From: Plantibacter sp. Leaf314
GTDB taxonomy: Bacteria > Actinomycetota > Actinomycetes > Actinomycetales > Microbacteriaceae
Reading direction: 5' to 3'
DNA length: 64,000 nt
Assembly (NCBI RefSeq): GCF_001423185.1
Contig: NZ_LMOB01000003.1
Location: 283,304 to 347,303 of the forward strand
Positions within the stretch are counted from its first letter, which is position 1, and each line of letters starts with the position of its first letter. Below are positions 57,861-59,576 of this stretch, piece by piece. Both the position numbers and the translations under genes were made by a program. The notes under the pieces were generated by a model. That model worked only from the letters and a program-made list of their open reading frames with translations, was not told the DNA's origin and made no database searches.

Positions 57861-59576
57861 ATGACCGCGAACCACGGAGGCGAGCGCACCGGCGAACAGG
57901 CCGGGGCGCTCGCCTCCGTGCGTGGTCCGGGCGGTGATGCGACGGTCCCGTCGGTACCGGCACTCGAGGTGCTCGACGGTGACGAGACGGTGCTCGCCGT
58001 CGAGGCCGGCGTCGTCCACGCGGTCGTCGGGCCCCGGTCGGCGACGCGGCGGTTCGTCGACGCCCTCTCCGGCGCCGCGGGCGGACGGCGGCGACGCAGG
58101 ACCGCCGAGGTCGTGCGCATCGCGGGGACGGCCGTCGCCCTCGCTTCTCGTGCGGCGTCGAGTGCGGCCGGGATCGCCGTGGTGACCGGCGGCCAGGCGA
58201 TCAGTTGGACGCAGGACGTGGGCGACAACGTCCTGCTCGGCAACGAGCACGGCTCGGGTGTCGACGGCTTCGGCGCCGCGGTCCGCGCCGCGCTCCGCTT
58301 CGGGCGCCCCGGTGGTGATACCCGTGGGAGCGACCGGGACCGCGTGGTCCGCGCGCTCGCGACGGTCGGCCTGGCGACCGAGCCGACCACGGCGGTCGCG
58401 GAGCTGACCGCTCTGGAACGCCGACTCGTCGAGCTCGCGAGAGCGGTCGCAGCGGGAGCCGCCGTCGTGATCGTCGACGAGTCCGGAGCCGGACTGTCCA
58501 CGCCGGAACGCGAGCGCTGGCAGACCGCCCTGCGCTCCGTCGCCGCCACGCCCCGGCCGTCCGGGACCGCTCCGGTGGTCCTGCTCGTCACGGGGACGGT
58601 CACCGGTCTCGCCGCCGTCGCATCGGCGGTCACCCTGCTCGGAACCGGATCCGGCGCGAACGGCCCCCGCACGCTCCCGGTGTCGGACGCGGCCGATGAG
58701 CGGCGGGTGCTCGACGCCTTGGCAGTGGGCCTCGGGAGCGCCGCGGGTCTCCGTGGTGTGGACCGCACGAGCGACAGCGCGCGGTCCTGCCCGGATCGCG
58801 ACACCCGCCCGACCGAGCGCACGGGCGGGCTGCGTGTCGAGCAGTGGCACGCGAGCCACCCCGCCGACGCCGCCAGGACCATCGTCGACGGGGTGAGCTT
58901 CGCGTGCGCTCCCGGCGAGGTCCTCGGCCTCTTCGGTCCCCTCGACTCCGGTGTCGGCGAGGTGCTCCTCAGCCTGTTCGGCCACTCGTACGGTGCCACG
59001 GTGCGTGGAGCGGTCGCCATCGACGGCGAGACCGTCGACGTCTCGACCATGGACCGCGCTCGCGCTGCCGGACTGCTTTACACGACCGAACACCCGATCC
59101 GCTACGACCTCGCGTTCCTCGGCGGCGTGCCCTCGAGTGTGTCGCCGACGTCGCTCACCCGCATGGTCTCGACCGGGCTCGCGGACGGCCGCCGGGCGTA
59201 CCCGGCGACCACCGGGGTGAACGGCCTGGCGGCGGCGCTGCCCGGTGCGCATCGCGGCCCGACCGCCGAGCAGTTCACCGAGTCACTTCGGTCGCTCCTC
59301 GACACACCGGCACGGGTGGTGCTCCTGGCCGAACCGTTCGGTGACCGCCGCGACGCCGGTGCGGCCGAACGCGTCGCCCTCATCCGGGCCATCGCCGCCT
59401 CCGGTCGGGCGGTCGTGGTGGCCGGCGACGACCCCTCGGCGCTCGTCGAGGTCTGCGACCGGGTCATCGCCGTCCGCAACGGCCGGGTGGTGGGGGAGAC
59501 CCGTCCCGACCGCGACGCCAGGGGGCATCGGGACGCGGTCCTCGCCGTCCTCGACGCGATGGGCGGGCTCGCATGA
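57861..59576 (+). CDS. Degenerate two-domain ABC ATPase paralogue without catalytic motifs
   Basis: A 571-residue protein that follows the real ATPase (54979) along its length but has lost the nucleotide-handling residues. Domain 1 Walker A reads VVGPRSATRRFVDALSG (R63-R64 where K-S belong), the signature region reads ELTALERRLVELARAV, and Walker B VVIVDESGAGL keeps the acidic pair. Domain 2 reads GLFGPLDSGVGEVLLSLFGH where the ATPase has GIAGLMGAGRTEFAMSLFGQ, has no LSGGNQ, and LLAEPFGD replaces LILDEPT. The frame is open and codon-biased, so it is retained, not decaying. Neither ATG 57861 nor GTG 57918 has a ribosome site. It may regulate or scaffold the transporter; this is untested. Confidence 0.75.
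   Translation: MTANHGGERTGEQAGALASVRGPGGDATVPSVPALEVLDGDETVLAVEAGVVHAVVGPRSATRRFVDALSGAAGGRRRRRTAEVVRIAGTAVALASRAASSAAGIAVVTGGQAISWTQDVGDNVLLGNEHGSGVDGFGAAVRAALRFGRPGGDTRGSDRDRVVRALATVGLATEPTTAVAELTALERRLVELARAVAAGAAVVIVDESGAGLSTPERERWQTALRSVAATPRPSGTAPVVLLVTGTVTGLAAVASAVTLLGTGSGANGPRTLPVSDAADERRVLDALAVGLGSAAGLRGVDRTSDSARSCPDRDTRPTERTGGLRVEQWHASHPADAARTIVDGVSFACAPGEVLGLFGPLDSGVGEVLLSLFGHSYGATVRGAVAIDGETVDVSTMDRARAAGLLYTTEHPIRYDLAFLGGVPSSVSPTSLTRMVSTGLADGRRAYPATTGVNGLAAALPGAHRGPTAEQFTESLRSLLDTPARVVLLAEPFGDRRDAGAAERVALIRAIAASGRAVVVAGDDPSALVEVCDRVIAVRNGRVVGETRPDRDARGHRDAVLAVLDAMGGLA
57873..57920 (+). promoter_or_regulatory. Strong 15-bp hairpin at the start of the degenerate ATPase gene
   Basis: CACGGAGGCGAGCGC (57873-57887) pairs perfectly with GCGCTCGCCTCCGTG (57906-57920); the 18-nt loop can close further through two CCGG blocks. 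It begins 71 nt after the permease stop. It could be a terminator or attenuator limiting read-through from the transporter genes, or a 3'-end stabiliser, even though it lies in the coding frame. Confidence 0.6.

Follow-up and report, generated by a model that had tools for sequence, protein, structure and literature searches.

A degenerate GguA paralogue encoded behind gguB in Microbacteriaceae as a candidate non-catalytic accessory subunit of a sugar importer

ABC importers are usually described as consisting of a binding protein, a permease and an ATPase, and degenerate nucleotide-binding sites are a feature of heterodimeric ABC exporters of the TAP, CFTR and TM287/288 type. According to excerpts from two papers, ABC transporters with one degenerate site are well known (PMC7756269, PMC11466899), and B. 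subtilis RbsA and NupO carry a second P-loop without lysine together with one odd signature (PMC11466899). Among the papers listed by full-text searches of a collection without most subscription journals, no title or opening of an abstract describes a stand-alone dead ATPase as subunit of an importer. A conserved dead ATPase that sits as an extra gene in the operon of an importer would be a new regulatory part, and the locus presented below carries a candidate for it.

The window, a stretch of 64,000 nucleotides from Plantibacter sp. Leaf314, holds a LacI-family regulator gene on the minus strand (50987-52006) and then, in the order chvE, gguA, gguB, X, araB, araD and araA, the genes of a sugar importer and of arabinose use. 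On the plus strand lie chvE for the sugar-binding protein (53673-54797), gguA for the two-domain ATPase of a multiple-monosaccharide importer, whose canonical site is intact (54979-56517), gguB for the permease (56549-57802), X (57861-59576), araB for an FGGY kinase (59740-61500) and araA for L-arabinose isomerase (62298-63815). X, a degenerate two-domain ABC ATPase paralogue of 571 aa by ORF list, NCBIfam and BLASTP, is present as the sequence-only reading had it, and the alignment with the GguA product bears out that the two proteins track each other along their length (26% identity over 525 columns, E 8e-40 by BLASTP). Its best NCBIfam match is the GguA model (NF040905), which covers most of X at 140.4 bits, well short of the cut-off for a GguA equivalog (810), while GguA itself reaches 867 bits. 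With a PF00005 match and an ABC ATPase fold X belongs to the ABC ATPase superfamily and is, on its sequence, a diverged paralogue of GguA. Where its translation starts is uncertain, with a strong hairpin over codons 2-24 and residues 1-29 modelled at a pLDDT below 50; a site further downstream may be the true one (for instance an in-frame GTG at 57918), and the first 20 or so residues of Plantibacter X may be hairpin rather than protein.

A search for relatives, which the sequence-only reading had proposed as a check, found X orthologues in 7/7 Plantibacter genomes and in six further genera, so a gene private to one genus, present as it is in seven, can be rejected. A protein-database search gave 20 close relatives, the nine with an organism name all from Plantibacter, and at another Plantibacter locus X is 89% identical to that of the window. 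When the form of X from genus g3 served as query, 38 more relatives appeared at 59-97% identity (where named, from Mycetocola, Okibacterium or Leifsonia); ordinary ATPases come next, after a gap, at about 31%. Some X-like database entries bear the name ‘multiple sugar transport system ATP-binding protein’ although they are without the residues to bind ATP. Score profiles proved poor at finding X and gene position was therefore used instead: profile A2 reached only 2/85 genera at E <= 1e-60, profile A5 fails to separate X (357-576 bits) from GguA (364-397), and a database search with the latter (7995 candidates scored) returned the 20 Plantibacter members together with 16 longer or ordinary ATPases.

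GguB, at a threshold of E <= 1e-150, is present in 113 of 398 genomes of Microbacteriaceae, a family with bacteria of soil and plants, and 91 of these gguB loci from 27 genera, the window included, were examined for X. It lies directly 3’ of gguB in 35 of the 91, spread over seven genera (g1 7/7, window included; g2 1/1; g3 5/5; g8 7/7; g12 8/8; g65 2/2; g98 5/6), with a gap of 18-127 nt in 34 loci and 58 nt in the window. The remaining 20 genera have no X at their loci, and tblastn with 34 X queries gave no sign of a remnant immediately behind gguB in the 56 X-less loci, where its matches, 0.4-2.9 kb away, are to ordinary ATPase genes. Across 396 genomes of the order, GguB passes E <= 1e-150 in this family alone (13 genomes); with a laxer GguB threshold, X is missing from all 20 loci drawn from 13 other actinobacterial families. 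In two of these 20 (L128, L130) another ABC ATPase domain occurs 0.7-1.3 kb after gguB, and its best match is domain 1 of GguA at 31-32%, not X. Because X is absent from 56/91 loci within the family and 20/20 outside it, the importer can work without X.

All 20 X proteins placed in a tree form one clade (support 100/99), which adjoins GguA and stands apart from the RbsA-type ATPases sampled, albeit with a warning from the tree program that long branches meet, a possible source of a false clade, so that the support is not to be read alone and it is unsure where exactly X originated. The shared slot behind gguB and the Gly-Gly pair common to X proteins (see below) point the same way as the single clade. 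Copies were located via gguB and all counts are of copies beside that gene; linkage to gguB is thus by design, the agreement of trees is not. The X and GguB trees (the latter by a quick method) agree on the grouping of genera, and the presence of X needs four changes on the GguB tree. In G275 (L086), a g12 genome, GguB and X both group with g8 and the operon probably moved as a unit. Linkage together with co-inheritance, as looked for in an importer subunit, is therefore what we observe for X and gguB.

What sets X apart from GguA is the loss of the ATP site. The domain-1 P-loop (GENGAGKS in GguA) has become GPRSATRR without lysine (aa 57-64, 58029-58052, plus strand), the domain-2 P-loop position reads GPLDSGVG (aa 359-366, 58935-58958, plus strand), and X also has other residues in place of the signature region and H-loop His of domain 1 and of the LSGGN and Walker B Asp of domain 2. 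The earlier claim that both Walker A loops, both signatures and the domain-1 H-loop are replaced holds in this respect, but not as the loss of two sites: the domain-2 P-loop (GLMGAGRT, without lysine) and the domain-1 signature (IGVGKQQ) of GguA are themselves non-canonical, which leaves the twin a single canonical site built from domain-1 P-loop and domain-2 LSGGN, and X has hence lost one, not two. In a survey of 35 X and 85 GguA proteins from the examined loci, the domain-1 P-loop Lys, the Q-loop Gln and LSGGxQ each occur in 0/35 X and 85/85 GguA; likewise, the pair of domain-1 GxxxxGK[ST] and domain-2 LSGG that marks GguA (85/85) is not found in X, the one GxxxxGK[ST] string in an X protein (G263) lying away from the P-loop position. 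Where GguA has E or D (85/85) followed by D (84/85), X has Gly-Gly (35/35). The database relatives (P0001-P0058) agree, with a P-loop string in 0/58 and [YF]D[LIV]xx[ILVF]GG[ILV]P in 58/58. At the position of the domain-2 signature of GguA, the g8 proteins of L085 and L091 have long glycine/alanine-rich inserts. Judged by its motifs, then, X would have no catalytic site, in line with the earlier view of a dead ATPase, and would be unable to bind or hydrolyse ATP.

Despite this loss, AlphaFold (71 sequences) models two confident ABC cores for X at a mean pLDDT of 77, and Foldseek and VIA-align place it among ABC ATPases, with OppD/DppD of Mtb as best Foldseek matches. pLDDT is low at the N-terminus (29 residues), in the linker and over most of residues 411-470. 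The last of these parts falls in the most conserved block of X: the block of aa 405-472 (59073-59276, plus strand), which runs from the domain-2 Q-loop to the signature segment and holds the invariant Gly-Gly, has the lowest dN/dS of the parts tested in Plantibacter (0.059, compared with 0.089 for domain 2 at 324-496, 0.17 for domain 1 and 0.43 for the linker), and residues 411-470 combine column identities of 0.80-0.95 with pLDDT values of 36-56. In the GguA control (70 sequences; mean pLDDT 93) the same segment is modelled at 93-97. An element that binds a partner could look like this segment, conserved yet not confidently folded by itself, although the alignment, and not a role in binding, may be the cause of its low pLDDT.

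In ABC importers that domain-2 segment faces the coupling helix of the permease. Our best explanation, to which we give a probability of roughly 58%, is that X accompanies the ChvE-GguA-GguB importer as a non-catalytic accessory subunit and acts through its conserved, rebuilt domain-2 segment. X would most likely stem from a single duplication of GguA in an ancestral member of Microbacteriaceae, would have lost its sole canonical ATP site early and would since have been retained as an accessory subunit, keeping the predicted tandem ABC-ATPase core fold and, as its most constrained part, the rebuilt segment. Through the latter it may bind the transporter (GguB and/or GguA) independently of ATP and, present in smaller amounts than the core subunits, tune assembly or activity of the importer; gating or scaffolding, as suggested from the sequence earlier, is possible, and X may either help or brake the importer. 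The docking idea draws on general knowledge of ABC transporters, since AlphaFold modelled single chains and the best 60 of 73 matches among PDB sequences contain no close CUT2 ATPase (best 114 bits). Residues of GguA and GguB that go with the presence of X show partial associations only, the best being GguB 18 and 207, and shared ancestry is not controlled for in these. Against the accessory-subunit reading weigh the loci where the importer lacks X and the frameshifted copy in G005 (see below).

Among other explanations, the one that survives best, though we consider it unlikely, casts X as a brake that vies with GguA for a place on the GguB dimer; the complexes with X would be idle, and uptake would depend on the X:GguA ratio. 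The position of X beside GguA in the tree, the tandem fold kept in the model and the absence of catalytic motifs would all suit a competitor, as would its probably smaller amounts. The latter are suggested by GC3 and by the hairpin. GC3 is 0.88 in X compared with 0.94-0.96 in its neighbours and codon adaptation is weaker, at odds with the normal codon bias claimed for X by the sequence-only reading, and the strong hairpin between the gguB stop and the body of X (57866-57930, plus strand; -50.6 kcal/mol, z -6.2) spans the annotated X start and is kept in both Plantibacter clades. Both features fit lower expression and, by extension, the low dosage of X that the accessory-subunit reading proposes. 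Hairpins of similar strength also follow gguB in X-less genera, so this element is not specific to X, and X may have come to sit behind an old operon end. A competitor should, however, retain the docking residues of GguA, since GguB is near-invariant in Plantibacter (mean identity 99.4%), yet the domain-2 segment is changed in 35/35 X proteins (acidic pair to Gly-Gly) and not confidently folded like that of GguA.

Less probable again is a role of X away from the transporter, in which it would report the state of sugar or transport to a protein such as the LacI regulator or a sugar kinase. A LacI-type gene does adjoin the operon in the window and in four other genomes (G008, G176, G007, G017), and between X and araB lies a perfect 16-bp palindrome, TGTACAACGTTGTACA (59596-59611, unstranded), the sole copy within the window at up to three mismatches, which we take to resemble a LacI-family operator; given this element upstream of araB, araBDA may have a regulated promoter of its own. 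AraB, to which X had been proposed to signal, is not a constant neighbour and an obligate partnership can be rejected: genera g8, g12, g65 and g98 have X but no araBDA in the roughly 6 kb fetched after gguB, and in G007 and G114 it is araD rather than araB that directly follows X. Conversely, arabinose genes follow the same importer without X in two loci from other families (L134, L138). In six of eight genomes examined further, the next long ORF after X is on the opposite strand or is araD, and G072 and G182 have same-strand ORFs there that are unlike transporter genes. The constant neighbour of X is GguB, by which every surveyed copy was found.

That X might still bind nucleotide without hydrolysis, as a sensor of energy or nucleotide, we regard as very unlikely. 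Domain-1 Walker B residues are indeed retained in part, with Asp-Glu in X of the window (VDES), Asp in 28/35 and Glu in 23/35 X proteins, and the H-loop His is kept in 6/35. The P-loop Lys and Q-loop Gln, on the other hand, are missing from all 35, and in g2, g3, g65 and g98 the N-terminal stretch that carried the P-loop is itself mostly gone.

Across the seven Plantibacter genomes X has a dN/dS of 0.174, with omega = 1 worse by 239 lnL units in the codon model, and values are 0.091 (g98), 0.097 (g3), 0.098 (g8) and 0.070 (g12) in other genera, where omega = 1 is worse by 341-562 lnL and tree lengths are large enough for synonymous sites to be probably partly saturated. The neutral decay that the sequence-only reading had named as its own refutation is thus not borne out, all X tests falling between 0.07 and 0.23. 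Selection on X, which that reading had deduced from 571 open codons, stands on dN/dS; the open frame itself is weak evidence here because an antisense ORF of 852 aa overlaps the same region of the window. As a control in four clade-B genomes, the true frame gave an omega of 0.21 and four other frames 1.3-3.6, while antisense +1 gave 0.27, as expected if its third positions align with the sense ones (lnL -3690.7 against -3664.6 for the true frame, the antisense on fewer columns). The frame is intact in 34/35 copies, the exception being G005 (L027), an otherwise complete Plantibacter genome with intact close relatives, where it breaks after about residue 496; a sequencing error is possible, or with this frameshifted copy one strain may live without X. 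Constraint on its neighbours is far tighter (dN/dS 0.003 for gguA, 0.006 for gguB), and mean third-codon-position differences among the seven Plantibacter genomes are 0.03-0.08 for chvE/gguA/gguB, 0.32 for X and 0.13-0.14 for araA/araB, the low divergence of chvE, gguA and gguB (53673-57802) pointing either to recent exchange or to a strong constraint on codons. Evolution of X is fast yet clearly constrained, and a decaying pseudogene held open by high GC, for which this fast evolution relative to its neighbours, the one frameshifted copy and long spurious ORFs in the window might speak, counts as refuted by a dN/dS far below 1 in five genera, motifs conserved across genera and frames that are almost all unbroken.

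If the accessory-subunit reading holds, X would show, as a natural experiment, how a regulator can evolve from a motor protein, and genomes with the same importer that have or lack X make such a role directly testable. More tentatively, X may found a family, so far undescribed, of pseudo-ATPases that serve bacterial ABC importers as stand-alone subunits; here a duplicated motor would have become a regulator that needs no ATP and has a new conserved docking motif, [YF][DR]x(4)GG[IVL], where its ancestor coupled ATP hydrolysis to the permease. Closest to X is GguA (NF040905, CUT2 type), which shares its two-domain layout and operon and is its best NCBIfam match and tree neighbour, whereas X differs in having no P-loop Lys, no LSGGQ, a rebuilt domain-2 Gly-Gly segment and, in several genera, a largely missing N-terminal P-loop part. 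The tandem ATPases OppD/DppD of Mtb, known to us here by entry titles, also hold two ABC domains in one chain but share 16-19% identity with X at TM-scores of about 0.4 over the whole chain. As far as the excerpts of PMC7756269 go, degenerate exporter sites resemble X in that a loss of catalytic residues is kept by selection, yet they concern one of two sites within a transporter while X is a whole extra two-domain protein. RbsA and NupO, in the excerpted text of PMC11466899, are like X in their tandem domains and in a degenerate site, which is true of GguA too; they keep one apparently working site, whereas X keeps none and adjoins a copy whose site is intact.
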